A DNA stretch of 27,761 bases from a virus. This document shows, one piece after another, positions 691 through 20,986 of the stretch. The number at the start of each line of letters is the position of its first letter. Positions within the stretch are counted from its first letter, which is position 1. The notes under the pieces are model-generated. The model did not search any database and was not told the DNA's origin. It was given only the letters and a program-made list of their open reading frames with translations. The stretch lies in IMG/VR virus record IMGVR_UViG_3300037071_001299, positions 1 to 27,761 of that record; one strand, 5' to 3'. Made by a program: the position numbers and the translations under genes.

Positions 691-920
691 ACCCGGCACC
701 GATCATCTACATCCCAGGCTCTCAGGCCGACGCCATGGGAGGCGACAACCTTCAGAGGTTCGCCGATCTCCTTTCCACGATAGCAGGCGAGGTTGTCGAG
801 GTGCATACCTACGGGCCGACCGTCTACCACGGACGTAAGCGCTTCATCGGCGCGCCGGGCGACGTGATAGCCGCGACGGCCGCGCTGAACTGGCAGGTTA
901 AGCCGACGCCTGCCGAGTAG
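687..920 (+). CDS. Hypothetical protein, 77 aa
   Basis: Unrecognised small soluble protein. The N-terminus (PAPIIYIPGSQADAMGGDN) begins with a beta-strand followed by a Gly-Ser-rich loop, a helix (LQRFADLLSTIAG), a second strand (EVVEVHTYG) and a C-terminal segment with GAPGDVIAA. It could be a small nucleotide-binding-like or alpha/beta fold, but there is no diagnostic motif. Its start is ATGA-coupled to the 34-residue membrane peptide gene. Its last 23 bases overlap, tail to tail, the end of the replication initiator gene on the other strand. A perfect hairpin begins 10 bases after its stop. Confidence 0.65.
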   Translation: MNPAPIIYIPGSQADAMGGDNLQRFADLLSTIAGEVVEVHTYGPTVYHGRKRFIGAPGDVIAATAALNWQVKPTPAE

Positions 921-1857
921 CCTGCGCTCCGGTTCCGCCCGCCCAGGGCGGAACCACCCCATGCGCCCGGTATTCTTCCGCGAGGCGCCGAGCTATCTCC
1001 AGCCCTTCCATCTCTTCTCGTTCCAGGGGCGCCGCGCGCCGATTGCTGGCGGGCCCCACCATCCGCGGATTGCGCTTGGCAGCGATGCCCTTCAGCGCCA
1101 GCTCCAGCAGCACCGGCTCCGGCCGCCACTCCTCGCCTGCTGAGGGCGCTTGAACCGCGTGCTGGGTCCAGCGCTCGCCACGGAGCCAGCCTGCGGGCAT
1201 CTTCAGGTATTCCCCAGGCTCGCTCTTGGCATAGCCGAGTGCGCCTGAAATCACCGTCTCCGGGTCCGTCTTGGCGATGCCCTTCTGCTTGCCTGTGCAG
1301 ATGGCCTTGAAGATGGTGCGGCACGCCGGCTTGTCGGTCTTCCGGGCGCCATCGGGGTATGCCTTCCAGAACCGCTCAAAGGCGAGGTCGATCGGGGCTG
1401 AGGGATCTTCCTTCTCTGCCTTCTGGCTTTCTTCCTTCTGAGGATCTTTCCCCTGAAACAGGTCAGGCTCAGAATGAGCCGGTATCTTTTTACAGGGTTC
1501 ATTTACAGGGTTAAGATCTCTTACAGGGTTAGTGTCCAGATTTTGGACACGGCCCGTGTCCAGATTTGAGACACGCTCATGTCCAGATTTTGGACACGGC
1601 ATCTCAAATCCAAGGATGTAGCGGGTCGCTGTGCCAAGTGTGCCGGGCTGGCGCTCTATGTGGCCGGATTGCTCCAGTGCGGCCAGATGGGTGTTCAGCG
1701 ACGAGCGGCATATCTCAACATGCTCAACCAACCACTCCTGGGAGGGGAAGCACCCATGGATCGGGTTGTGGCAGTCGGCGAGGTAGAAGAGGATGATCTT
1801 GGCAACGGGCTTCAGTCCGCGCTGCTCCAGCGCCCAATTTGTCGCCTTGTGGCTCAT
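898..1857 (-). CDS. Helix-turn-helix replication initiator (lambda O-like role), 319 aa
   Basis: Likely binds the phage origin and helps load the DnaB-like helicase encoded just upstream. Residues about 15-80 form a winged helix-turn-helix of the HTH_36 kind (GCFPSQEWLVEHVEICRSSL, then a wing with ATRYILG). Residues about 85-170 are a low-complexity, charged linker. The C-terminal part (FERFWKAYPDGARKT, then GYAKS and MPAGWLRGERW at about 210-230) is the block commonly seen at the C-terminus of phage replication proteins. The linker-coding DNA holds two families of repeats that look like origin iterons. The ATG start has AGGAAG 8 bases upstream. It is separated from the helicase gene by a 144-base hairpin-rich gap, and its 3' end overlaps a plus-strand gene by 23 bases. 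The DNA-binding role is well supported; the exact family is inferred. Confidence 0.75.
   Translation of the reverse strand: MSHKATNWALEQRGLKPVAKIILFYLADCHNPIHGCFPSQEWLVEHVEICRSSLNTHLAALEQSGHIERQPGTLGTATRYILGFEMPCPKSGHERVSNLDTGRVQNLDTNPVRDLNPVNEPCKKIPAHSEPDLFQGKDPQKEESQKAEKEDPSAPIDLAFERFWKAYPDGARKTDKPACRTIFKAICTGKQKGIAKTDPETVISGALGYAKSEPGEYLKMPAGWLRGERWTQHAVQAPSAGEEWRPEPVLLELALKGIAAKRNPRMVGPASNRRAAPLEREEMEGLEIARRLAEEYRAHGVVPPWAGGTGAQATRQASA
931..955. terminator. Perfect 10-bp-stem hairpin at a convergent gene junction
   Basis: GGTTCCGCCC (931-940) is followed by a 5-base loop and its exact complement GGGCGGAACC (946-955). The hairpin starts 10 bases after the stop of the plus-strand unit and lies inside the 3' end of the minus-strand initiator gene. 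There is no T-run on either side, so it is not a canonical intrinsic terminator. It is placed where a bidirectional transcription barrier would be expected. Confidence 0.45.
1490..1530. repeat. Three TTACAGGGTT direct repeats next to the dyad iterons
   Basis: Exact 10-bp copies lie at 1490-1499, 1503-1512 and 1521-1530, immediately beside the 19-bp dyads and in an unusually AT-rich stretch for this window. Read on the coding strand as AACCCTGTAA, the copies at 1503 and 1521 encode NPV, while the copy at 1490 is in another frame and encodes EPCK. As with the dyads, conservation is at DNA level. Confidence 0.75.
1532..1597. repeat. Three 19-bp dyad-symmetric iterons inside the initiator gene
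   Basis: Copies lie at 1532-1550, 1556-1574 and 1579-1597, with start-to-start spacing of 24 and 23 bases. Copy 1 reads GTGTCCAGATTTTGGACAC and has 7-bp inverted arms around a 5-base centre. Copy 2 differs at two positions and copy 3 only at the first base. Copies 1 and 2 are read in the same frame on the coding strand, giving the peptides VQNLDT and VSNLDT. Copy 3 is read in another frame and gives CPKSGH. The DNA rather than the peptide is therefore conserved. Confidence 0.8.
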
Positions 1858-2001: not shown

Positions 2002-3408
2002 TCAACCGAACTGAAGGGCATCCTGGGGCTCCGGGGCCTGCCCTTCATCGACATCCCCGACGTGGTTGTAAGCGAGGTCGCACTCGGCGTGCACGGTCGT
2101 CACAGGGCCGCCGCGGTTCTTGAGCACGCCAATCTCCAGCTTACCCACAGCCCGGCGCTTATCTTCATACCAGTCGCCGATTTTCTTGCTGTCCGAGGGC
2201 GTGGATTGGCGCTCAAGGTAATATTCATGGCGGTAGGCTGAGAGGATTACGTCGGCATCCTCCTCGATTTCTCCACTCTGCCTGAGGTCGGACAGACGCG
2301 GCCGCTTGTCGTCGCGCTCTTCCACTTGGCGGTTGAGCTGGGAGAGGACAAGGAAGGGGCAGTCCATCTCCAGGGCGAGGCTCTTGATGGTCTTCGACAC
2401 AATGCCCACGGCGTCGAAGGCTGAGCGCGCCTTGGGCACCGACACGAGCTGCATGTAGTCTACCACCACCAGCGCCGGCCTGATGTGCTTCGCCGCCTGC
2501 CGCAGCGCCATGGTCAGGCGCGGCAGCTCACGAAACTCCCGAGCGATGAAGCGGAACGGCAGCTCCTCGTATTCCTTCGCCACGTCGATCATCACGCGGG
2601 CCTGGGCCTCGTCCATCTTCCCGTTCATCAGGTCGCGGTAGGATGCCAGCACGCCGCGCTGGTGCATCAGTTGGCTGATCGAGCGGATGGTGACGTCACG
2701 CGATGGCATCTCCAGCGACGGCATCAGCACCGGATCCCCGCGCATGGCCGCCTTGTTGGCGATGTTCAGGGCGATGGCCGTCTTGCCCATGCTGGGGCGG
2801 CCTGCCAGCACATAGACCCAGCCTGGGCGCAAACTGCCTAGCACCCCGTCCAGCGCCTTCAAGCCGGTCGATACGCCCGGCGGAGTGCCTTCCATGTAGG
2901 CGCTATTAATGCTTGCCACGGCGTCGATCAATCCGCGCCTGAACGTGGTGGTCATGGGCACCGCCGATGATGCTGCCAGATTGGCCGCAATTCGGTCTTC
3001 CAGTGCGCTTGCGATCGACGGCACAGTGCCGCCCTCCGATGAGCATACCGCCGTGCTGGCGTCCTGTAGCGCCTGGGCTAGGTCGCGCCGGCTCCACAGC
3101 TCCATGATGCCGCGCGCATGGTCCTTGACGGCAGATAGCTGCACCGCCGCACCAGCGAGCCGCATTAGGTATCCGACGCCACCCAGCTTGGCGATGCCCT
3201 CGTCGTCCTGCATGGCAAACCTGAGGGTGACGGGGCTTGCTACCTCCCCATCGGTCACCTTTGCCTGTGCCACCCCGAAAATGCGCGCATGGGTGGGGTC
3301 ATAGAAATGGGATGCCTGTAACTCCCCGCAGCGCAGAAGGGCGTCGTTGTTGAGCAGGACGCAGCCCAGGAGGTTCTGCTCCAACTCGACGTTGAACAGG
3401 TCGCTCAT
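2002..3408 (-). CDS. dnaB: DnaB-like replicative DNA helicase, 468 aa
   Basis: A ring helicase that should unwind DNA at the phage fork. The N-terminal DnaB domain is clear (VELEQNLLGCVLLN at residues 7-20, then the usual helices to about 110). A linker leads to the RecA-type motor domain from about residue 175. The Walker A motif GRPSMGKT is at 203-210. Walker B (VVVDYMQL) is at 314-321. The LSQLNRQVEERDDKRP block, the DLRQSGEIEEDADVIL segment (374-389) and C-terminal GVLKNRGGP follow the DnaB order. Length is normal for the family. The ATG overlaps the methyltransferase stop as ATGA. Carrying its own helicase, next to an HTH initiator, points to origin-based theta replication rather than a T7-style primase-helicase system. 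Confidence 0.93.
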   Translation of the reverse strand: MSDLFNVELEQNLLGCVLLNNDALLRCGELQASHFYDPTHARIFGVAQAKVTDGEVASPVTLRFAMQDDEGIAKLGGVGYLMRLAGAAVQLSAVKDHARGIMELWSRRDLAQALQDASTAVCSSEGGTVPSIASALEDRIAANLAASSAVPMTTTFRRGLIDAVASINSAYMEGTPPGVSTGLKALDGVLGSLRPGWVYVLAGRPSMGKTAIALNIANKAAMRGDPVLMPSLEMPSRDVTIRSISQLMHQRGVLASYRDLMNGKMDEAQARVMIDVAKEYEELPFRFIAREFRELPRLTMALRQAAKHIRPALVVVDYMQLVSVPKARSAFDAVGIVSKTIKSLALEMDCPFLVLSQLNRQVEERDDKRPRLSDLRQSGEIEEDADVILSAYRHEYYLERQSTPSDSKKIGDWYEDKRRAVGKLEIGVLKNRGGPVTTVHAECDLAYNHVGDVDEGQAPEPQDALQFG

Positions 3409-4562
3409 TCCGACACATCGGAGAACAAGCCCGCCTCCCCGTTGATGCGGTCGCGGGCGAGGGCGGCATATGCCGGGTTCAGCTCGCAGATGATGGCGTC
3501 ACGCTGGAGCCGGTCGGCGACGAGGGCGGTCGTGCCGGCGCCGCCGAACGGGTCAAGGATCGTCTGCGGGATCGGCTCGTGCGCGGGGCAGGCGCAGGAT
3601 GGCGCCCAGCCCGTTGTTGTGGTGGTGGTGAGCATCCGCGGCATGTCGGCGTCCATTCGATCGGTGCATCCGACCTTGGCCCGCCCCGAGTGCCGCGCCG
3701 GGTCTTTTGTGCGCTCGGTTTCCGTCTGCCGCACCCACGGCGCCCCGCAATGCGGGCACTGGCCGCGCTCACTGCTCCCCGCCTTGATGCACGTCTCGGC
3801 GAGGGCGGGCGGCATGGTGGCAAAGTGCGCGCCGCTGTAGGGTTGCGACGGGATCGACCAGACAGAACGGCGGTTCGCGCCTATAGCTGACGAACATATC
3901 TTGCTGAGGTCATGCGCAAGCGTTTGCCCACCTGGGCCATCAGACCATTTATGGGTGTCTGATCTTCCTCTACTTGCCCTCGCAACACTATCTGGCGCAT
4001 ACGGCTCCCGAATCGCATCAGCGTCGTAGAAATACCGGGCGCTCTTGCTCAGGAGAAAGACGTATTCGTGCCCCTTGGTGCAGCGGTCGGTGACGCTCTC
4101 CGGCATCGGGTTGGGCTTGGCCCAGATGATGTCCTGCCGCAGATACCAGCCGTCCGCCTGTAGGGCGAAGGCTACGCGCCACGGGATGCCGATGATGTCT
4201 TTATGCTTAAGACCTTCCGGGGCCTTGGCGGAGTGCGCGCTCGTGCTCGGCTTGTAGGTCTCCTTCACAGCCGCCTTGCGCTCGTCGCTCGCATTCCAGA
4301 CGCCCTTACCGCTGCCCGCGTAGCTGTCCCCGAGATTGAGCCAGCACGTCCCGTCGTCGCGCAGCACGCGCTTAACCTCGCGGAACACCGCCACCATCTC
4401 GGCGACATAATCCGCAGGCGTCGGCTCAAGCCCTATCTGCCCGTCGTGGCCGTAGTCGCGCAGGCCGAAGTAGGGCGGCGAGGTGACGCAGCATTGGACC
4501 GAGCGATCCGGCAGGGTCGCCAGCGTCTCGCGGCAGTCGCCTGTGATAACGCGCACGCTCAT
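3405..4562 (-). CDS. DNA methyltransferase, N6-adenine/N4-cytosine (SPPY) type, 385 aa
   Basis: Transfers a methyl group from S-adenosylmethionine to an exocyclic amine of a DNA base. The catalytic TSPPY is at residues 27-31 and the cofactor-binding DPFGGAGTT at 337-345, so motif IV precedes motif I, the order of the beta-type N6_N4 methyltransferases. About 160 residues lie between the target segment (IIWAKPNPMPES, 145-156) and motif I. They include CPHC (269-272) and CAC (323-325), probably an inserted zinc ribbon. Residues 312-317 are six threonines. I chose the ATG at 4562, which is ATGA-coupled to the upstream gene; a longer in-frame reading to 4724 has no methyltransferase-like residues in its extra part. 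No restriction enzyme gene is nearby, so it is probably a solitary phage methylase for protection or regulation. Base specificity cannot be read. Confidence 0.9.
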   Translation of the reverse strand: MSVRVITGDCRETLATLPDRSVQCCVTSPPYFGLRDYGHDGQIGLEPTPADYVAEMVAVFREVKRVLRDDGTCWLNLGDSYAGSGKGVWNASDERKAAVKETYKPSTSAHSAKAPEGLKHKDIIGIPWRVAFALQADGWYLRQDIIWAKPNPMPESVTDRCTKGHEYVFLLSKSARYFYDADAIREPYAPDSVARASRGRSDTHKWSDGPGGQTLAHDLSKICSSAIGANRRSVWSIPSQPYSGAHFATMPPALAETCIKAGSSERGQCPHCGAPWVRQTETERTKDPARHSGRAKVGCTDRMDADMPRMLTTTTTTGWAPSCACPAHEPIPQTILDPFGGAGTTALVADRLQRDAIICELNPAYAALARDRINGEAGLFSDVSE

Positions 4563-4957
4563 CGGTTGCGCACCGGGCCGCGCTTGCCGCGGAACCATGT
4601 GTCCCACACCTTGGGCGCCGGCTTGCGCTTCTCCCCGTAGAGCACCTTCACCTTGCCCTTGGGCAGGCGCAGCACCTTGTTCTCGCGGGGCAGGATGGTG
4701 AGCGGGATCCAGAGGCCGAAGCACTTCTCCAGCACGACGAAATATTCCTCGCCATCATCCCATATGAACCGGTAAACCCGGCGCAACCCCGTCTCGCTGG
4801 CCGGCTGGCGCATCACGTATCGGCACCAGTCGTCGGCATCCTCGACGGACGCGATGATGCGGCGGAAGAGGTCGTGCGGGTCTACATCGGACCCAATACG
4901 CTCCCGCACCCGAAGAGCGAAATGCTCATGGGCGATCCTCTTGTCGTTGTAGGCCAT
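4559..4957 (-). CDS. Hypothetical protein, 132 aa
   Basis: Unrecognised. The sequence is mixed alpha/beta with a basic C-terminus. Residues 1-40 are helical and charged (HEHFALRVRERIG), a tryptophan/tyrosine-rich middle (RVYRFIWDDGEEYFVVLEK) looks like paired beta-strands, and the tail is very Lys/Arg-rich (KPAPKVWDTWFRGKRGPVRNR), which suggests nucleic-acid contact. The ATG at 4957 has GGAGGAG upstream and overlaps the resolvase gene by 32 bases; in-frame residues before it are Arg/Pro/Ser junk from the overlapping gene. The stop is ATGA-coupled to the methyltransferase. The setting suggests a DNA-metabolism accessory role, without proof. Confidence 0.75.
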   Translation of the reverse strand: MAYNDKRIAHEHFALRVRERIGSDVDPHDLFRRIIASVEDADDWCRYVMRQPASETGLRRVYRFIWDDGEEYFVVLEKCFGLWIPLTILPRENKVLRLPKGKVKVLYGEKRKPAPKVWDTWFRGKRGPVRNR

Positions 4958-8749: not shown

Positions 8750-8925
8750 GCTTGGTCGACACCGCCGACGCACAATGGACGAAGGTGATCGAGGAACATC
8801 GGCATCTGATCGTCGCCCAGATCATGGCGGGCAAGAAGGTGAATTGGGCGAGGTATGACGCCACGGTCCTGATCCAGTCGGGACACATGATGCTGGCGGC
8901 GGCTGAGGAGGGGCAAAATGGCTAA
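8746..8925 (+). CDS. Small hypothetical protein, 59 aa
   Basis: A short gene filling the space between the coiled-coil gene and recT. GTG start overlaps the upstream stop as GTGA; its last 8 bases overlap the recT start. The product is helical (TADAQWTKVIEEHRHLIVAQ, then KKVNWARYDATVLIQSGHMM). It resembles small helical proteins coupled to phage recombination genes but no family can be named. Its TAA lies just past the recT ATG, which suggests translational coupling of recT to it. Confidence 0.65.
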   Translation: MSLVDTADAQWTKVIEEHRHLIVAQIMAGKKVNWARYDATVLIQSGHMMLAAAEEGQNG

Positions 8926-9964
8926 TGACCTGATGATCGGCTTCAAGCGGGAGATCAGCACCCTTCTGCCGACCATGGGCCTGTCGAAAGACATCCCCGT
9001 AGAAAAGATGGAGAGTGCGCTCGTCATCGCGGCCAACAAGAACCCCAAGCTGCTGCTGGCCGATCGGGCAAGCCTGTGGCAGTCAACGCGCCAGTGTGTC
9101 GCCGATGGCCTTCTGCCGGACGGGCGGGAGGCGGCCCTGGTCATCTTCAAGACCAAGAAGGAAAATGCATGGGTCGACGCCGTGCAATATATCCCGATGG
9201 TTTTCGGGTTGCGCAAGCGGGCGCTCAACTCCGGCGACGTCAAGGACATCCGGGCCTATCTGGTCTATGAGGGCGAGTGGCAGAACGGGCGCTTCGAGAT
9301 GATCGCTGGCGACGAGGAAGCCATCATCCACAAGCCCATCATCGACGGCGCCCCGGGCGAGCCGGAGCGCGGCAAGGTCATCGGCGGCTACGCGGTGGCG
9401 GTGCTGAGGGACGGAAGCTACGTGCGCCAGTGGCTCCCCCTGTCGGACATCGAAAAGCGGCGCCGGGCGGCACCAAGCCAGCGCGTGTTCACCGAGAAGG
9501 GTGGTGCACCCAAGGTGTCCGACGTGCCGCTCGGCGTGTGGGCTGACTGGTGGGACGAGCAGGCCCTCAAGACGCTCGTGCGGGCCGTGAGCAAGAAGCT
9601 TCCCCTGTCGAGTGACGACATGCGCGCCGTCATGGAGAGTGACCGAGACTTCGAGCCGAGCGCGCCGGCAGCGCAGATTGCCCAGGCGCCGACGACACTG
9701 AAGGAACGGCTCCTCGCTGAGCAGGCGGCACATGCGGTCGAGAACACCTCTCAGGAGGTCGAGGAGGCGGAAACGGTCGAGGAAGATGACGGGGTAATCG
9801 ACGAATACGATGCCGCCGTCGCCTTCGCCATGGCGCCGGAATTCGAGGAGGGAGTGCAGGCCGCCGCCGCCGGCAAGGAGGAGAAAGACTGCCCCTACCA
9901 CAAGAACCCGCTCCTGTCTCACTGGCTTGGCGGTTTCAGGGGTGCGAAGGAAGCCAAGAAGTGA
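8918..9964 (+). CDS. recT: RecT-family single-strand annealing protein, 348 aa
   Basis: Anneals complementary single strands, working with the RecE-like nuclease. RecT-family landmarks are present: ALVIAANKNPKLLLADRASL (34-53), CVADGLLPDGREAALV (60-75), and YIPMVFGLRKRALNSG (91-106), followed by the strand-rich core (GYAVAVLRDGSYVRQWLPLSDIEKRR) and a WADWWDEQALKTLVRAVSKKLP helix. Residues about 230-320 are an acidic, low-complexity linker. The tail has a short Cys/Tyr/Pro/Trp motif (CPYHKNPLLSHWLGGFRGA) that RecT does not usually need. The ATG has a strong GAGGAGGGG site. The gene overlaps the small gene before it by 8 bases and is GTGA-coupled to the next gene. Confidence 0.9.
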   Translation: MANDLMIGFKREISTLLPTMGLSKDIPVEKMESALVIAANKNPKLLLADRASLWQSTRQCVADGLLPDGREAALVIFKTKKENAWVDAVQYIPMVFGLRKRALNSGDVKDIRAYLVYEGEWQNGRFEMIAGDEEAIIHKPIIDGAPGEPERGKVIGGYAVAVLRDGSYVRQWLPLSDIEKRRRAAPSQRVFTEKGGAPKVSDVPLGVWADWWDEQALKTLVRAVSKKLPLSSDDMRAVMESDRDFEPSAPAAQIAQAPTTLKERLLAEQAAHAVENTSQEVEEAETVEEDDGVIDEYDAAVAFAMAPEFEEGVQAAAAGKEEKDCPYHKNPLLSHWLGGFRGAKEAKK

Positions 9965-13757: not shown

Positions 13758-14150
13758 ATGAGTGAGCCAACTATCAACCTCAGGAGACTGACTATGCAGA
13801 AGACTTTGGGCCGCATTGCGGCAATCGCTACCGGCGTCCACCTCGCCCTTGCCTGCTGGGTGTTCACCGGATCCACCGTGAACGCCTGGAGCCTGTCCTC
13901 GCTCTTCGGGGGCCGGACCTACAGCACTCCGACGCGGGTGGTCGGGCACACCATGTATTACTACAATCCGGCCACGGCTCGCTGGGTCGGCGCCTACACC
14001 GACGCTCGTCGGCCGGCGCACTTCGGCACTGGGTATCGGACCTACGCCCAGAGCACGTTCTCGCTTCAACGAACGCTCAGCTACAATCAATCCGGCCGTG
14101 ATTTGAACGGAAATCTCGTCTACGGCCAGAACCCGGCCAACCGCCGCTAG
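13758..14150 (+). CDS. Exported protein with signal peptide, last gene of the rightward operon, 130 aa
   Basis: A hydrophobic segment (RIAAIATGVHLALACWVFTG) after a basic N-terminus, with a likely cut near VNA-WS, indicates secretion. The mature part is Tyr/Gly/Asn-rich and beta-like (GHTMYYYNPATARWVGAY, then a GYRTYAQSTFSLQRTLSYNQ stretch). Two starts are supported: ATG 13758 behind GGGAGAG, and ATG 13794 behind AGGAG at 7 bases. The second gives a shorter, more typical signal peptide. It is not recognised. As a secreted early-region product it could alter the host envelope or serve the lysogen. It runs tail to tail into the virion operon with a 4-base overlap. Confidence 0.7.
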   Translation: MSEPTINLRRLTMQKTLGRIAAIATGVHLALACWVFTGSTVNAWSLSSLFGGRTYSTPTRVVGHTMYYYNPATARWVGAYTDARRPAHFGTGYRTYAQSTFSLQRTLSYNQSGRDLNGNLVYGQNPANRR

Positions 14151-17100
14151 TCCTCGTCGTCATCGGCCTTGGGCGGGGCAATCTCCCACCAAGGCCGATC
14201 CTTCCCTTCTGCCCGATAGTCCTCGCCCTTCGGCCCTGTCAGCGTTTCAGCTACGGTCGCGGCGGCTTGAGGCGAAGATCCCCACCAGATTGCAGCAGTC
14301 GACGCCATCCCAGAGATGGGCCCGCCCGGCAGCAGGTTCGCCACGCCAGCCATCAGGCCCGGCTGGAAGATCATCTGGTAGCCAGCACGCACCGCATTGT
14401 TTTCCGCCGTGTTTGTGTTCGGGCTATTGCGCCCGGCCCACGCGGAGATGATGCGCTGGAGGTTGTAGAGGAAGTATGCGGCATATGGGCCAGCGGCGAT
14501 CGAAGTCAGGTCGCGCTCGTATTTGATGCCCGTGAAGAGCTGCACCAGCGGGTCGAACATGCCGGTAAGGCCGGAGCGGGCGAAGGCGCGCTGGAACAGC
14601 CACTTCAGCAGATCGTCTTCATCTTCCTTCTCGCGCCACTTCTCCGGATTGAAGATGGCCTCGCGGATGACGGTGGTAAGGAGTTGGCCGGCGAGTAGCA
14701 CGCCTACGCCCATGGCCGCGTGTCCCGTATGCAGCGCCGCGTTACCGAAGCCATCCGCGTTCTTGATGCGCCGCACATTGCGCACAAGGATGTTGCGGTG
14801 GAAGGCCATGGTGAAGGACATAATGCCGTAGAGCGAAGCAACCATGGGGTGGTTCGCCATGATCGGCCGGTCGCTCTTCATCGGCGACTGAATGACCGTG
14901 TTAATGAGCCGCACTGAGGCCGTCGCCCATAGGTCAGCCGCCGCGTTGTAGAAGCTGCCGTCCGGCGCCAGCATGTCCTCCGGCGTCGGCAGGCCCTTCA
15001 GCCCCTCCAGCCAAGCGAGGAGGTCCGGACGGTCTTCCTTGGCGATGCCCAACTCGTTCAGCTCGGCGTTAGCGAGCGCCTTCCCGCGGCCCTTGCCGGC
15101 ATCAGTCTGGAGGTGCCGCATGATGATGGCGTGCGCGACCGGGATAGAAGATGCCATCTGGAAGTTGGTCAGCGGGGTCAGCAGCGACTTCTGGAAAAAC
15201 TTCGCCATGGTGGCCGACATGCCCTTGGTCATCGCGGCACTGTCGGCGCCGATGCGGTTCGCCATCACAGTCTCTCGCATGGCCGACGTTACCAAGCCAA
15301 TGACGCGGGCCAGCTCGAAGAGGTCTTCCTGCCGGCCGCGGGAGACAAGGGTGCGGATCTGCGAAGCCACGGCGCGGAAGCTGTCCCGCACGTCGCCCGA
15401 GCGAAGGCCGGTCACCACAGGCTCGGAGAGGGAGGCGAAGGTGGCGCGGCCAAGCATGGCGATCGTGCCCCAGAACGTGAGGGCGCTGGATGCCTGCTCG
15501 CCGAAGCGGCTCGGGTGCCTGAAGCGGCCGGTAGCCGAGTTGACCGCGCGCCGCACAAGTCCGACGTCATAGCCCGTGGCGCCAGCCTTGACCGCTGCCT
15601 CAAGCATGTTCTCCAGCTTCTCGCCCTGGGCACCGAAGCGCTTGGCGAATTCAGCCCGCCGGGCCGACGCAAAGGCATAGCCGCTTATCAGCTCCAGCGG
15701 GTCGTTCTCCAGCCAGCGCGTGAGGATCTGGTCGGCTTCCTGGGGGAGGATGCGGCCCTTCAGGAAGCTGCCGGTCGGCCCCATCGTGTCGAAGTCGTTG
15801 CTGTCCCCGACCATCATGGAGGTGTGCCACTTCTCGGCGGAGTAGACAGAGAACCGGTCCTTCAGCACGTTCAGCAGGCGCTCGTGCAGATCCTCGTAAT
15901 CGGCCTCTGCCGCCACGATCTTGTCTCCGATGGTGGTGCTGAGCGGATCCTCCTCCGCCTGCTTCTGGAGGCGCTTCAGTTGGGCGCGGGCGGCGTTCCA
16001 TTCCTGTATCAGCTCCTCGTCGTTCTCGTCGAGGCGCGGCGCGGGGTTCCTCTCTCCCTCTGGTGTAGGCTGGGTGGCGTTGCGCAGGCCCCTGATGACG
16101 GTCTTCATGTCGAGGAGCTGAGTGTCGGGATCCTCGTTCTCAGTCACCTCCCTCTGGAACATGAGCGCGTAGACCTTGGTAGCGTCACGCCGGAAGGCCG
16201 CGGGGTCGGTGTTGATCTCCTCCTTGTTGGGGATGCGCGGCAGGTAGCTGTCAGCGTAGCCGAGCGTGATGCCGGCGTTCTTCAGGTCATACCAGATGCC
16301 CTTGAGGATCTGCCTCAGGTCCGAAGCCAGCGTCCGCATGGCCTGGGTGGTCTGCACGCCCTTCTGCCCGATCAGGAGCGAGCGGAGGGTCTTCGCCTGC
16401 TCGTCCGTCATGCGGTCGTGGCGGAAGCCAGCTTTGGCAAGCGCGCCGTCGACCATGCGGAGCCGGCGCTTCGCCGTCACCTCCATGTCCTGCTGGTAGG
16501 TGCGCTTCGCCAGTCGCCCGGAGCCTGGGTCGCTGCCGATCTGGTCGGCGATGTTGAGGATGGCGCGCGTAGCCCGCGCGTTGCTCTGGGCATAGGCGGC
16601 GGCGTGCATGGATGCCGTCAGGCTATTGAGGTAGTCGGTCCACAGGCCATAGAGCATACTTCCGGCAGTCGAAGCCTTGGCGCGCAGGTTGAAGAAGCGC
16701 TTCCATGCCGCCACCATCTCCCGCAGGGCCGCCTTCTCCGCCGCCGCCGTGAGCGCCATGGTGCCCATCTTCGGCAGGCGGAGCAGTAGCGTCTTGTCGG
16801 AGTAGATGTCGACGTCTTCCGGCTGCACCGCGGCAGGGTCGCGCCCGAAGAGCGACACGCGGGTCATCGCGTTCTGAAGCTCTTCCATCGCTTGACCGAA
16901 CGCCACGGCATCGCCGTCCTTCGGGAATGTCAGCTTCAGCCGCTCGTCGACGTTGCTGTCATAGGCCCATCCGCCCTTGGACAGGAAGCCCTGGGGGAGG
17001 TCGCTGATGGCGCTTACCGTCCGGCCGACCCAGCTCTCGAAGGCCCGGGCGAACATCTCCGCCGGGTCGACGAAGTAGCCCGTGCCGCCGCTATACTGGT

Positions 17101-20100
17101 CGTCATACTCCTTCGACGACTTGAAGTAGCGGTTCAGAAGCTCAGCCGGCGGGCGCTTGCCGGCGCGCAGGTTGAACATGATGCGCTGGGCGTTCTTGGC
17201 ACCTTCGGTCGGCTTTCCGTCCACACCCACCTGGGCCGCCTGCGACTGAAGCTCCAGTATCAGGGCGCTGATCTTGTCCTTTTCGCCATAGAGCGCCTGC
17301 ATGAGGCCGGCGAAGGCTTCCACCACTGATGCCTGCGGGTTGAGCTGGCGCTGCACGCCGGTCGCGTCCATCTGCCGGGATAGCATCCCCTCCCGCTTGG
17401 CAAACTGCACGAGCCAGTTGTCGAGGGCGTGCCCCCACTCGTGCGCGAAGCTGTTGCTCCGGCCTGGGAGGTGGATGGTGCGAGGCTGGCCCGGCCCCCA
17501 GGAGAACATGCCGAGCGCACCCACGCTGCGCACGCTCTGGAGTGAGAGGGTGATCGGCTCGCCATTGATCTCCAGCGCCAGCGCCTTCTCCGGCACTTGC
17601 ATGATATGCGCGAGCATCTGGAGGTTGCGGTAGGCGTCTAGCATCTGGTCGACGGCTTCGACCGGCGTGATGTCGCGCCGCACCTTCTTCACCAGCCGGC
17701 CGACTAGGTTCTTCTTCCGGACCTTGATCGTGGGGAGCTGAACGTTGATGCCGAATTTGTCCTTCAGCATCTTTGCCAGAACGCGGATCTGCTCCTCGAT
17801 CGGCATGTTGTTGGCTTCGCCTGGGTCGATGCCGGCGTCACGGAAAGCGGCGCCGTAGACCGATGCCCGGTTGGTGAAGCTGAAATTCAGGAAGCGCGGG
17901 GAGAGGCGGCCCCTCGGCTTGCGGCCGGTGGTGTCCCCGATGTCCTGTGCCGTGTTAATTTTCGGCGCCGGCTCCGCGTCGGTGTCAGCGGCATCTCGCG
18001 GGCCACCGAACGGCATGGTCGGGTTATCGTAGCCGCGCATCCACTCGCTGAAGTCGGTGATGTGGGTGATGCCCTGGGCGCGCAGATCCTTCGGGCTCGG
18101 TTTGGGCTCGCCTGCCTTGGCCGCCGCTTGGCCCTGCTCAAACATCTCCTTGCTCTTGGCTTGGCGCGCGGCCTTCACTGGCGCCGATGCCTCCGCCCTG
18201 ACTTCTGCCCGCTCGTCGCGCTCCTCGTCGGTCAGCTCTGATGTCGGGGTGCGCTTCGGCTCGTCAAACAGGTCACGCCGGTTCTCCGGATCCCCGAAGA
18301 GGCCGTCGTCGTCCATCGGCTTGCTACCGCCGCGCTTGGCCTCTTGCTGCTTGCGCTCCGCACGCTCCCGGTCGGTAATCTGCTCGGCGCCGGGGATGAC
18401 GAGCTGCTTGCCCTCCGGAGTGAGGTCTACGCGCCCGCCCTCTTCGGTCCCGGTGCGGGCGGGGCGAGGTCCATAAAGTGAGGTCATCCTCTCTTCGGCC
18501 CGCTGCCGATACTGAGCGGCTGTCAGTGCCGGGCCGGAACCCCAATCCGAACCAAGGGCGAATGACACAGATGGGAAGTCCGGCCCTTTGGAGAAGGCAT
18601 CGTCGAACGCCTGCCAGACTACCGGCGCTGGCCGCCTGTCGGGGGTGTAGCTGGCTGGCGCTTGGCCTCCATCATCTCCGCGTTCGCCAGCACCCGGCTC
18701 GCCGCCGTCCTCTGCTGGTTGCTCGTCGATGGGTCGTCCAGTATCTTCCGTGCCCGCTCGCGCACCATCGCCAACATCGTCATTGAGGTCGAAGCCTGGG
18801 ATGTCCCCGAAGGCGTCGATGACGTCGGATCCTGCTTCTGCATTTAGGATGCTCCTTACCATCTCGCGCTCGATTGCCTGCTCAACCGATCCGCCGTGCC
18901 GCTCCAGATGCCCGATAACTGCCTCGCGCTCAGCAGGGTCGAGGTTCAGGCCGAAGGTCGTCACAGTCTCGTCAACCGCCGCCTGCACCACCTGTCGGCG
19001 CTGCTCCCCGGTGCTCATGTCCTGCTCCGGGTCGACGATCGTATCTACCGCGCCAAGGATGGGGGCCGGCCGCGTCTCCTCGTCGCTTACGCGCTGGGCG
19101 GCTTCCCAATCCGCCCGCACTTGGGCCGCCATCTGCTGGTCAGCCATCGGTAGGGTGCGGCCATGGGCCTCGTCGATTATGGCGTCAAGCATGGCCTGAT
19201 GGTCGAAGTAGTAGCCACTCTCCGGAATGATGCCGCGAAGCTCGGGGTGATCGTCGGTGGGGATGGTGTCGAGGCCCCGGCCGCCCTTCTTGAACAAGCC
19301 GGGGTGGGTGTGCGGAGTGATGCCGGCGTTACGCAGCTCTGCGGCATCCGCGCTGGTCGGGTCGATCCGGATGTTCCTCTTGCGCAGGAGGTAGGCCAGC
19401 GGCTTGCGCTGCGGCAGGGGAGGCTCCTTGCCGGCGGCGATAGCTTGCTCCTCCCCTTGCGTCACCTCGATCGAGGGCGGCGGTGGGGCAGTCTCGTCGA
19501 TGGGTGGGACCAGCGCAGGAGTGCGCGCACCTTCGGCCACGGGCGGGGCTGGCGGTAGGACGGGCAGCGCGGGCGGCTCGGGCGGCAGGGAGGGCGGAGC
19601 AGGCGGCGGCGGCGGGCCTGCACGCTCCTCCTCTTCCTGCTGCTGAAGCGCCTGAATGAGCATGTCCCCGATGGAAGCCGGGGTGGCAGGCGGAGCGGGT
19701 GCTGCCGGAATAGCTGGAGGTGCGGGGGTGGCAGGCGGAGGGGTGGCCGCGCGTGCCTGCGGCTTGAGCGCTTCAACCGCGGCCTGTCCAACCTCAGTCG
19801 GGCCCCCAATGGCAAGGCCGCCGATGGCCTCCGCCAGCACGTCGCCCGGGCTGCCACCAGCCAGCGCCTCTCCAGCCGCGCCCATTGCCGGGTCGACGGC
19901 AGTAGCCCCAGCTATCGCCGCCGGCTGCCGCGCGATGCCGCCCCTGCTGGCCCACTTCGCCAGCGCACCAGTGGCGCCGCCGCTTAGCGCATCGAACGCG
20001 CCGATGATGGTCGCAGCCTTGGCAGCATCGGCCACCATGGCTTCCAGTGCGCCCGGATTGGCCGTGAGAAAGGCACCTACCGCTTGCGGGTTAGCAGGAT

Positions 20101-20986
20101 CCACGCCAGCGCTGCGAAGCGCATCCTCGACGCCAGCCGTGACACGGGAGGAATATTCCGTCCCGCCGCTCGTAAGTCCTGCCGCCGCTGCCGCCCCGCC
20201 CGGTCCCGCCGCCGAGCCAAGGACCGCTGCCACCATGGTAGGGAGCGAAACCGGGAGGCTTCGGACGCCGAACGTGCGAGCCACGCCCAGCGGATCTTTA
20301 CCCGTGGCCGAAAACGTCTCGCCCCAAGTCTCCGCACCCATGGCCTCCTTTGCCGCCGGATTGATTGGGATTTGAGCAATCTCGGCATTGCCCTGCAAAA
20401 TATCGGGCATGACTTCATTGACCAGTTTGGCGCCGCGGGCCACCAATTCATCCTTCCGCACGGCCGCCTCGTCCGCGTCGGCCTGGGGCACGTCGAAGCC
20501 TAGCTCTCGCGCCAAGGCAATGCCCTCGGAGATGTCTCCCGCTCGCTGGAGCTGCTTGGCGCCGCCGGCCGCAACCATCCCTTCCGGCACCATGCCGAGC
20601 TGGATCATTCCGGCCTTCCAGTCCCCCTCGAACGTGTCGGCTGTCGGATTGAACGGCGCCCCTACGTCAGTCATCACCGCCGGCCCTTCCGGCTTGCGGC
20701 TGAGGGCGATGGCTGCCTGCATCGGGTCGGCAGGCGGCTGGTAGATCTCCCCGGGGATGGGCGAGACTTCCGGTGCTGGCGCCATCGGCACGCCGGCATA
20801 GGGCGGAATGACGCGCTGGAGCGGATCTGGCTGGGCCGGCGGAGATAGCGCCTGAATGAGCATGTCGCCCAGCTCCGGCGCTTCAGTCATCATCGGCTCG
20901 GGCGGCAGGGAGGTAATGAGGTCGGCGAAGAGCCCCCCGCGACGGGGTGCACTCGCCTGCGGGATCAGATCGTCGAACATGCCCAT
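14147..20986 (-). CDS. Giant polyvalent ejection/internal virion protein with HEWGH zincin motif, 2279 aa
   Basis: Probably carried in the virion and delivered into the cell with the DNA. N-terminus: FDDLIPQ (4-10), FADLITSL (20-27) and GDMLIQAL (40-47). Residues about 240-400 are Gly/Ala-rich hydrophobic helices that could insert in membrane. A proline-rich stretch (about 410-500) repeats GDMLIQAL (440-447). Residues about 1030-1190 resemble the large polyvalent protein domain LPD1 and end in SFAHEWGHALD, with the zinc-type HEWGH at 1182-1186; EMFARAFE at 1310-1317 offers a third ligand. A long helical part follows with YLPRIPNKEE. The C-terminal 300 residues hold further hydrophobic segments (about 2085-2105 and 2165-2185) and an acidic tail. 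The start is TAATG-coupled to the upstream gene. Size and order match the ejection proteins of podoviruses. Protease activity is inferred. Confidence 0.85.
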   Translation of the reverse strand: MGMFDDLIPQASAPRRGGLFADLITSLPPEPMMTEAPELGDMLIQALSPPAQPDPLQRVIPPYAGVPMAPAPEVSPIPGEIYQPPADPMQAAIALSRKPEGPAVMTDVGAPFNPTADTFEGDWKAGMIQLGMVPEGMVAAGGAKQLQRAGDISEGIALARELGFDVPQADADEAAVRKDELVARGAKLVNEVMPDILQGNAEIAQIPINPAAKEAMGAETWGETFSATGKDPLGVARTFGVRSLPVSLPTMVAAVLGSAAGPGGAAAAAGLTSGGTEYSSRVTAGVEDALRSAGVDPANPQAVGAFLTANPGALEAMVADAAKAATIIGAFDALSGGATGALAKWASRGGIARQPAAIAGATAVDPAMGAAGEALAGGSPGDVLAEAIGGLAIGGPTEVGQAAVEALKPQARAATPPPATPAPPAIPAAPAPPATPASIGDMLIQALQQQEEEERAGPPPPPAPPSLPPEPPALPVLPPAPPVAEGARTPALVPPIDETAPPPPSIEVTQGEEQAIAAGKEPPLPQRKPLAYLLRKRNIRIDPTSADAAELRNAGITPHTHPGLFKKGGRGLDTIPTDDHPELRGIIPESGYYFDHQAMLDAIIDEAHGRTLPMADQQMAAQVRADWEAAQRVSDEETRPAPILGAVDTIVDPEQDMSTGEQRRQVVQAAVDETVTTFGLNLDPAEREAVIGHLERHGGSVEQAIEREMVRSILNAEAGSDVIDAFGDIPGFDLNDDVGDGARAGTEDTGRPIDEQPAEDGGEPGAGERGDDGGQAPASYTPDRRPAPVVWQAFDDAFSKGPDFPSVSFALGSDWGSGPALTAAQYRQRAEERMTSLYGPRPARTGTEEGGRVDLTPEGKQLVIPGAEQITDRERAERKQQEAKRGGSKPMDDDGLFGDPENRRDLFDEPKRTPTSELTDEERDERAEVRAEASAPVKAARQAKSKEMFEQGQAAAKAGEPKPSPKDLRAQGITHITDFSEWMRGYDNPTMPFGGPRDAADTDAEPAPKINTAQDIGDTTGRKPRGRLSPRFLNFSFTNRASVYGAAFRDAGIDPGEANNMPIEEQIRVLAKMLKDKFGINVQLPTIKVRKKNLVGRLVKKVRRDITPVEAVDQMLDAYRNLQMLAHIMQVPEKALALEINGEPITLSLQSVRSVGALGMFSWGPGQPRTIHLPGRSNSFAHEWGHALDNWLVQFAKREGMLSRQMDATGVQRQLNPQASVVEAFAGLMQALYGEKDKISALILELQSQAAQVGVDGKPTEGAKNAQRIMFNLRAGKRPPAELLNRYFKSSKEYDDQYSGGTGYFVDPAEMFARAFESWVGRTVSAISDLPQGFLSKGGWAYDSNVDERLKLTFPKDGDAVAFGQAMEELQNAMTRVSLFGRDPAAVQPEDVDIYSDKTLLLRLPKMGTMALTAAAEKAALREMVAAWKRFFNLRAKASTAGSMLYGLWTDYLNSLTASMHAAAYAQSNARATRAILNIADQIGSDPGSGRLAKRTYQQDMEVTAKRRLRMVDGALAKAGFRHDRMTDEQAKTLRSLLIGQKGVQTTQAMRTLASDLRQILKGIWYDLKNAGITLGYADSYLPRIPNKEEINTDPAAFRRDATKVYALMFQREVTENEDPDTQLLDMKTVIRGLRNATQPTPEGERNPAPRLDENDEELIQEWNAARAQLKRLQKQAEEDPLSTTIGDKIVAAEADYEDLHERLLNVLKDRFSVYSAEKWHTSMMVGDSNDFDTMGPTGSFLKGRILPQEADQILTRWLENDPLELISGYAFASARRAEFAKRFGAQGEKLENMLEAAVKAGATGYDVGLVRRAVNSATGRFRHPSRFGEQASSALTFWGTIAMLGRATFASLSEPVVTGLRSGDVRDSFRAVASQIRTLVSRGRQEDLFELARVIGLVTSAMRETVMANRIGADSAAMTKGMSATMAKFFQKSLLTPLTNFQMASSIPVAHAIIMRHLQTDAGKGRGKALANAELNELGIAKEDRPDLLAWLEGLKGLPTPEDMLAPDGSFYNAAADLWATASVRLINTVIQSPMKSDRPIMANHPMVASLYGIMSFTMAFHRNILVRNVRRIKNADGFGNAALHTGHAAMGVGVLLAGQLLTTVIREAIFNPEKWREKEDEDDLLKWLFQRAFARSGLTGMFDPLVQLFTGIKYERDLTSIAAGPYAAYFLYNLQRIISAWAGRNSPNTNTAENNAVRAGYQMIFQPGLMAGVANLLPGGPISGMASTAAIWWGSSPQAAATVAETLTGPKGEDYRAEGKDRPWWEIAPPKADDDED
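14162..14199. terminator. 11-bp perfect inverted repeat at the second convergent junction
   Basis: ATCGGCCTTGG (14162-14172) pairs exactly with CCAAGGCCGAT (14189-14199) across a 16-base loop that can pair further inside. It starts 12 bases after the stop of the plus-strand operon and lies in the last codons of the giant minus-strand gene. On the plus strand a pyrimidine-rich run follows. Position and strength suggest a terminator or barrier; no true T-tract is present. Confidence 0.45.
19647..19666 (-). repeat. 20-bp exact repeat inside the giant gene, copy 2
   Basis: Identical to 20847-20866 and in the same frame; together with adjoining bases both encode GDMLIQAL. It lies in the proline-rich region. 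A companion 19-bp exact repeat (19575-19593 and 20895-20913) encodes SLPPEP near both copies. Confidence 0.8.
20847..20866 (-). repeat. 20-bp exact repeat inside the giant gene, copy 1
   Basis: First copy, at the N-terminus of the giant protein (residues 40-47). See 19647-19666. Confidence 0.8.

Follow-up and report, generated by a model that had tools for sequence, protein, structure and literature searches.

Two families of short repeats lie inside the gene for a predicted replication initiator in the window, by which we mean the whole 27.8-kb virus record that was analysed. This arrangement raises two questions: (i) have the repeats been kept as DNA or as the peptide that they encode and (ii) could they form the replication origin of the phage, as a preliminary description of the sequence proposed?

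The initiator gene and its repeats

The gene, the segments encoding its domains and the neighboring helicase gene are located as follows.

898-1857, minus strand: replication initiator gene, 319 aa, encoding a winged HTH (HTH_36), a disordered linker and a helical C-terminal domain (Pfam, PHROG, AF2 model)
1603-1857, minus strand: codons of the winged HTH domain, aa 1-85 (Pfam match 14-67; pLDDT 83-98)
1669-1707, minus strand: codons of the recognition helix, aa 51-63 (DSSP helix 51-63), in which R51 and T56 covary with the half-site
1411-1587, minus strand: codons of the predicted disordered linker, aa 91-149 (pLDDT mostly <50), with most of the array inside
1150-1401, minus strand: codons of the ordered C-terminal domain, aa 153-236, presumed to be the replisome-contacting part (AF2 pLDDT 82-97; PHROG primosomal protein match 128-236)
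2002-3408, minus strand: DnaB-type replicative helicase gene adjoining the initiator, its likely partner (Pfam DnaB_C, E 7.5e-60)

The initiator matches Pfam HTH_36 with an E-value of 2.8e-9 (37.1 bits, above the gathering cut-off of 25) and PHROG 270 with an E-value of 4.4e-29; the PHROG matches are to replication-initiation families, some of them named O-like. HTH_36 is the only Pfam domain found, there is no sequence match to the RepA_N domain, and a PDB sequence search with the single initiator protein gave no match. In the AlphaFold2 model, an ordered winged helix (1-85) and an ordered helical C-terminal domain (153-236) are joined by a linker (91-149) for which pLDDT is mostly below 50. 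Fold matches include MarR-type repressors, with RepA_N and Rep-DNA structures among the weak ones. On the minus strand the initiator gene comes after the DnaB-type helicase gene, and the two adjoining genes constitute an initiator-helicase module of the P22 type. Two genes elsewhere in the window are unusual in their own right. The RecT-family protein encoded at 8918-9964 (plus strand) has at its C-terminus (306-345) a match to PF04957, the domain of ribosome modulation factor (E 3.4e-7), which makes it an odd fusion, and the 2279-aa protein encoded at 14147-20986 (minus strand), which carries an LPD1 polyvalent-protein domain, is very large for a 28-kb record.

The repeats and the DNA around them are listed in the direction of transcription.

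1579-1597, minus strand: dyad A, GTGTCCAAAATCTGGACAT, read in frame 0 (CPKSGH) (match search)
1556-1574, minus strand: dyad B, GTGTCTCAAATCTGGACAC, read in frame 2 (VSNLDT), imperfect (match search)
1532-1550, minus strand: dyad C, GTGTCCAAAATCTGGACAC, perfect arms, read in frame 2 (VQNLDT) (match search)
1521-1530, minus strand: second repeat family, copy 1, AACCCTGTAA (NPV) (repeat count)
1503-1512, minus strand: second repeat family, copy 2, AACCCTGTAA (NPV) (repeat count)
1490-1499, minus strand: second repeat family, copy 3, AACCCTGTAA, in another frame (EPCK) (repeat count)
1483-1531, no strand assigned: AT-rich block overlapping the second repeat family, a candidate DNA-unwinding element (65% AT versus 35% for the window; family-wide AT peak at the same place)
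1411-1450, minus strand: purine-rich stretch of the coding strand, 80% (base composition)

The three 19-bp dyads share a 7-5-7 geometry (arm, spacer, arm), follow the HTH codons on the coding strand and are spaced by 24 and 23 bp. They give 6 strand-matches with at most three mismatches versus 0.14 expected from dinucleotide shuffles, and none is found elsewhere in the 27.8 kb. Likewise, TTACAGGGTT occurs at 1490-1499, 1503-1512 and 1521-1530, three copies versus 0.26 expected. Both families, as well as the change of codon frame noted for one copy of each, are thus as the preliminary description reported: dyad A encodes CPKSGH in frame 0 versus VSNLDT and VQNLDT in frame 2 for the other two dyads, and the second family encodes EPC in one copy versus NPV in the others. 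The description of all three dyads as repeats stands, with the qualification that the middle one has unequal arms (GTGTCTC/TGGACAC). The AT-rich and purine-skewed DNA that had been placed beside the repeats is also evident, at 65% AT and 80% purine in the two segments listed, and AT content over the wider interval 1451-1550 is 55% versus 35% for the window. The GC-skew plot that had been suggested as a check came out differently. Window skew has no extremum near 1.5 kb and therefore lends the origin reading no support.

The first question can be addressed with a synonymous-redraw null, in which the peptide is fixed and codons are drawn from the window's own usage over 20,000 redraws. The dyad score of 15 compares with a null mean of 5.1 and a maximum of 14, and the three copies of AACCCTGTAA compare with a mean of 0.02 and a maximum of 2. 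Because 0/20,000 redraws reach a score of 15 and 0/20,000 reach three copies, the DNA is conserved beyond the requirements of the protein, which bears out, for both families, the earlier argument that the DNA was kept while the peptide was not and hence has a function of its own.

The array and the recognition helix in related genes

Relatives of the initiator were drawn from viral contigs, one genome per bacterial species, phages and plasmids. They comprise 177 distinct genes, mostly from alphaproteobacterial prophages and phages, of which most belong to Rhodobacterales and some to Hyphomicrobiales. Since they were fetched by protein, chiefly by the HTH part, the sample (bar a few loci) was not selected for repeats. 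PHROG replication initiation is matched by all 60 of the 60 family members tested. The C-terminal parts (in L012, L020, L031 and others) fall into several unrelated-looking types, with total length ranging from 174 to about 500 aa, as if a DNA-binding and origin half had been joined to exchangeable replisome-contacting halves. DnaB lies near the initiator gene in only a few relatives, and the annotations of RcKai and LagS-V1 show no helicase, loader or primase adjoining the initiator, with an AAA ATPase nearby in RcKai. Among 22 loci, the initiator flanks also contain NusG-like paralogues (5), proteins with the DnaA C-terminal, DnaA-box-binding domain (3), GapR and GcrA; which neighbors carry the DnaA C-terminal domain was looked for in these flanks and could not be pinned down.

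An alignment of homologous genes had been set beforehand as a check on the DNA reading, and it comes out in favor. Nearly all of the 177 genes keep a linker array, 164 of them with a convincing one according to an automatic caller that fixes bases 4-5 of the half-site as TC; families with other motifs (L021, L110, L229, L304, L227 and the L033 type) were read by eye and by repeat finding. The 13 weak cases divide into five in which the motif is unchanged and scores lower (L015, L039, L219, L220, L319), three that keep the pitch with a different half-site (L021, L110, L229) and five pelagic-type sequences with a TTAGAC dyad. All 92 of 92 representatives have their sites in more than one codon frame (two or three), and 89/92 exceed their synonymous-codon shuffles. 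The commonest spacing is 23 (142 intervals), followed by 25 (37). The sites are confined to a single place: 156 strong dyads lie inside arrays versus one outside in the 710 kb of DNA flanking the 92 representatives. The array is kept across proteins that are only 30-50% identical to that of the window.

The usual layout in relatives is a full dyad, two successive half-sites and a second full dyad, then the 12-bp repeats described below. The right arms of the two middle sites match at 2.2-2.9 of 7 bases versus 1.8 by chance. The window is atypical, as each of its three sites is a complete or nearly complete dyad, and because most relatives place two half-sites between two full dyads, stoichiometry differs between the two.

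Each gene encodes its own presumed target, which allows a direct comparison of protein and site. Numbering the half-site as G1 T2 G3 T4 C5 C6 A7, we find Arg51 accompanied by G3 in 134/135 genes and Val, Ile, Leu, Asn or Ser51 by C3 in 28/28. At the other end of the half-site, Arg56 is found with T6 C7 in 8/8, Asp, Glu or Ala56 with G7 in 85/87, and Asn, Thr, Lys or Val56 mostly with A7. The window (R51, T56, half-site GTGTCCA) fits this pattern. The sole R51 exception, L227, is a mis-called array with a half-site that reads ATGTGCA by eye and an Arg at residue 52. This locus (4001-4858), with base 5 changed to G alongside Arg52, provides a third candidate residue-base pair. Of all column-by-base pairs, none is as strong as R51 with base 3, and this holds at three redundancy levels. 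Some pairs outside the helix (K20, A9) also have high mutual information, probably owing to kinship rather than contact. In a tree from which the helix columns were left out, the changes of R56 and of T6 fall on the same 5 of 186 branches, and R51 and G3 share 4/5; this tree is short, and its few supported branches by themselves yield 1-3 independent pairs, nearly all in the expected direction and too few for significance. The spacing of residues 51, 52 and 56 equals the i, i+1, i+5 spacing of the base-contacting residues Arg72, Ser73 and His77 in the MarR-family protein SCO3205 (PMC3737563), an analogy. Helix and array sites change together across about 160 related phages. This joint change of half-site and recognition helix within one gene makes it very probable that the HTH domain binds the array in its own gene.

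The second repeat family behaves differently. Its consensus in relatives, RAACCWGTAARG, is present in up to three copies directly after the last dyad, with a period of 12 in 74/83 intervals, and at least two copies fall within 50 nt in 134/177 linkers versus 1/2110 control windows. Within this block Val is encoded by GTA in 159/166 cases and Arg mostly by AGA or AGG, codons that are uncommon in the genes of the window. The block is present alongside entirely different dyads and HTH domains in L021, L110 and L304, and partly in L229. Phage Pam5 has three copies of GGGGTCAGAATGTGACCCC, also 19 bp and spread over two frames, and a related tandem repeat follows them. The persistence of the 12-mers in these genes, together with the Pam5 repeats, indicates that the second family does not follow HTH specificity. 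Family-wide, AT content peaks just after the last dyad (57% versus about 35%), coinciding with the 12-mers, and a purine peak comes next, as an unwinding element would show. Across the family, the 12-mers are followed by a recurrent GGAGGAGGAGG run and then by DNA rich in GCGCGC.

A candidate origin and its alternatives

The explanation that we favor for these features jointly is that the replication origin of the phage lies inside its initiator gene, a reading of sequence and predicted structure to which we give a probability of about 0.86. Dimers of the winged-helix domain would bind the 19-bp dyads, the very DNA from which the flexible linker of the protein is translated, and several copies at a pitch of 23-24 bp would bend the DNA or wrap it. 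The AT-rich 12-bp repeats beside the dyads would then open, after which the C-terminal domain would probably load the phage's own DnaB helicase (2002-3408). For RcKai and LagS-V1, where no helicase, loader or primase is annotated beside the initiator, host DnaB would serve instead. We infer that the protein physically binds these sites, that the strands open, that the helicase is loaded and that replication starts here, and autoregulation through the same sites is compatible with this. The observations of the preliminary description are confirmed, and its interpretation is supported by comparative evidence of unusual strength.

An unlikely alternative is that the dyads are an operator and nothing more, at which the HTH protein roadblocks its own transcription while replication starts elsewhere. 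Palindromic sites and a covarying recognition helix would also be expected of a dimeric repressor, and the fold matches do include MarR-type repressors. However, the sites lie 260-330 nt inside the gene rather than at a promoter, there is one array per locus, and each array is followed by the conserved AT-rich 12-mer block that is independent of HTH specificity. Replication-initiation families are matched by every member tested, and plasmid pPR9, discussed below, shows that an HTH_36 Rep can sustain a replicon together with its origin segment. An operator role could nonetheless exist in addition to origin function. A regulon, with sites at other promoters, was considered separately and rejected, as only 1 site lies outside arrays in 710 kb. 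We regard as extremely improbable that the repeats arose from selection on the linker peptide (VQNLDT or NPVREP) rather than on DNA. Peptides such as VQNLDTNPVREPV do recur in many relatives, but the linker is predicted to be disordered, 92/92 genes have the same DNA in two or three different frames, the dyads are lost in synonymous shuffles, and the 12-mers are marked by the rare codons GTA and AGA/AGG; the frame and codon tests refute this reading. Recent local duplication that left functionless copies could produce near-equally spaced tandem repeats and is just as hard to credit, given an array kept over proteins of 30-50% identity and half-sites that change with the recognition helix. Conservation across the family refutes duplication by chance.

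A further proposal refines the in-gene origin and can coexist with it. The preliminary description suggested that two adjacent families might mean two bound proteins, and different factors for the two families are indeed favored by the retention of the 12-bp family where dyads and HTH change completely. A separate factor bound to the 12-mers is possible, with the dyads as initiator sites. That the 12-mers are bound by a different factor encoded by the host, and are more than DNA that opens easily, we consider somewhat less likely than not. The retention of RAACCWGTAARG where iterons and HTH differ completely and its regular 12-bp period argue for it, but we have identified no candidate factor, and the 12-mers coincide with the AT peak, as expected of an unwinding element.

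As each gene encodes both a reader and its target, the family is a collection of matched protein-DNA pairs. We suggest, tentatively and at slightly less than even odds, that these natural pairs give an HTH_36 recognition code (residue 51 for base 3 and residue 56 for bases 6-7) and that the family has an origin architecture of its own, in which the pair of full dyads around two half-sites and the iteron-independent 12-mers would have separate dimer-site, monomer-site and second-factor roles. In open papers we did not find descriptions of this array in alphaproteobacterial phages, of the mixed full-site and half-site layout, of HTH-independent 12-mers or of an in-gene recognition code, nor did we find an open paper containing the peptide VQNLDT. 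The in-gene reading gives a predicted replication origin a precise position across many alphaproteobacterial phages and prophages, a broad group for which we found no origin described. The single-gene pairs open two matters to direct testing, namely the specificity code of phage initiators and the way in which origin specificity shifts in phages where the site also has to encode protein. Sites read in different frames allow the DNA to persist while the linker peptide varies.

Comparison with known origins and initiators

The origin of phage lambda lies in gene O, where 19-bp inverted-repeat iterons bind O dimers and an adjacent AT-rich region opens (PMC5043065, PMC7466680). In-gene inverted-repeat sites of ~19 bp in the linker and an adjoining AT-rich block are both found in the window, and the spacing of 20, 24 and 23 that we measured for the annotated lambda iterons resembles the 23 and 24 of the window. 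The lambda iterons are read in frames 0, 2, 2 and 1, three codon frames in all, so the frame change is a property of the lambda origin too. There are also differences. Lambda uses a P-type loader, whereas the window has a DnaB gene as helicase partner, and most relatives, unlike lambda, have half-sites and a 12-bp repeat block. The lambda-style origin of the preliminary description thus agrees in anatomy and not in profile homology: comparison of the initiator with lambda O by hhalign gave an E-value of 0.22 and a probability of 0.3%. P22 provides a second parallel, since its origin is annotated in gene 18, next to the DnaB-like gene 12. An origin inside the initiator gene beside a DnaB-type helicase gene is the arrangement seen in the window, with the gene order reversed. 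The initiator has no significant hhalign profile match to P22 gp18 either. Because neither comparison reveals homology, we liken the family to the lambda origin, which it would resemble in its working, and do not assign it to the O family.

Plasmid initiators offer parallels in domain organization. The rep gene of pSK41 encodes a wHTH N-terminus that binds four central Rep boxes, a central linker and a host-specific C-terminal replication domain (PMC5703833). This is the same three-part plan, although pSK41 Rep belongs to a different family (RepA_N) and to Gram-positive plasmids. The hybrid Rep of pPR9 has an N-terminus of pfam13730, which is HTH_36, and its rep region supports autonomous replication of a mini-replicon; the swapped segment of ~500 bp comprises the DNA-binding domain and the origin (PMC5703833). 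The initiator of the window thus shares its Pfam HTH family with a staphylococcal plasmid Rep in which DNA-binding domain and origin were exchanged as one piece.
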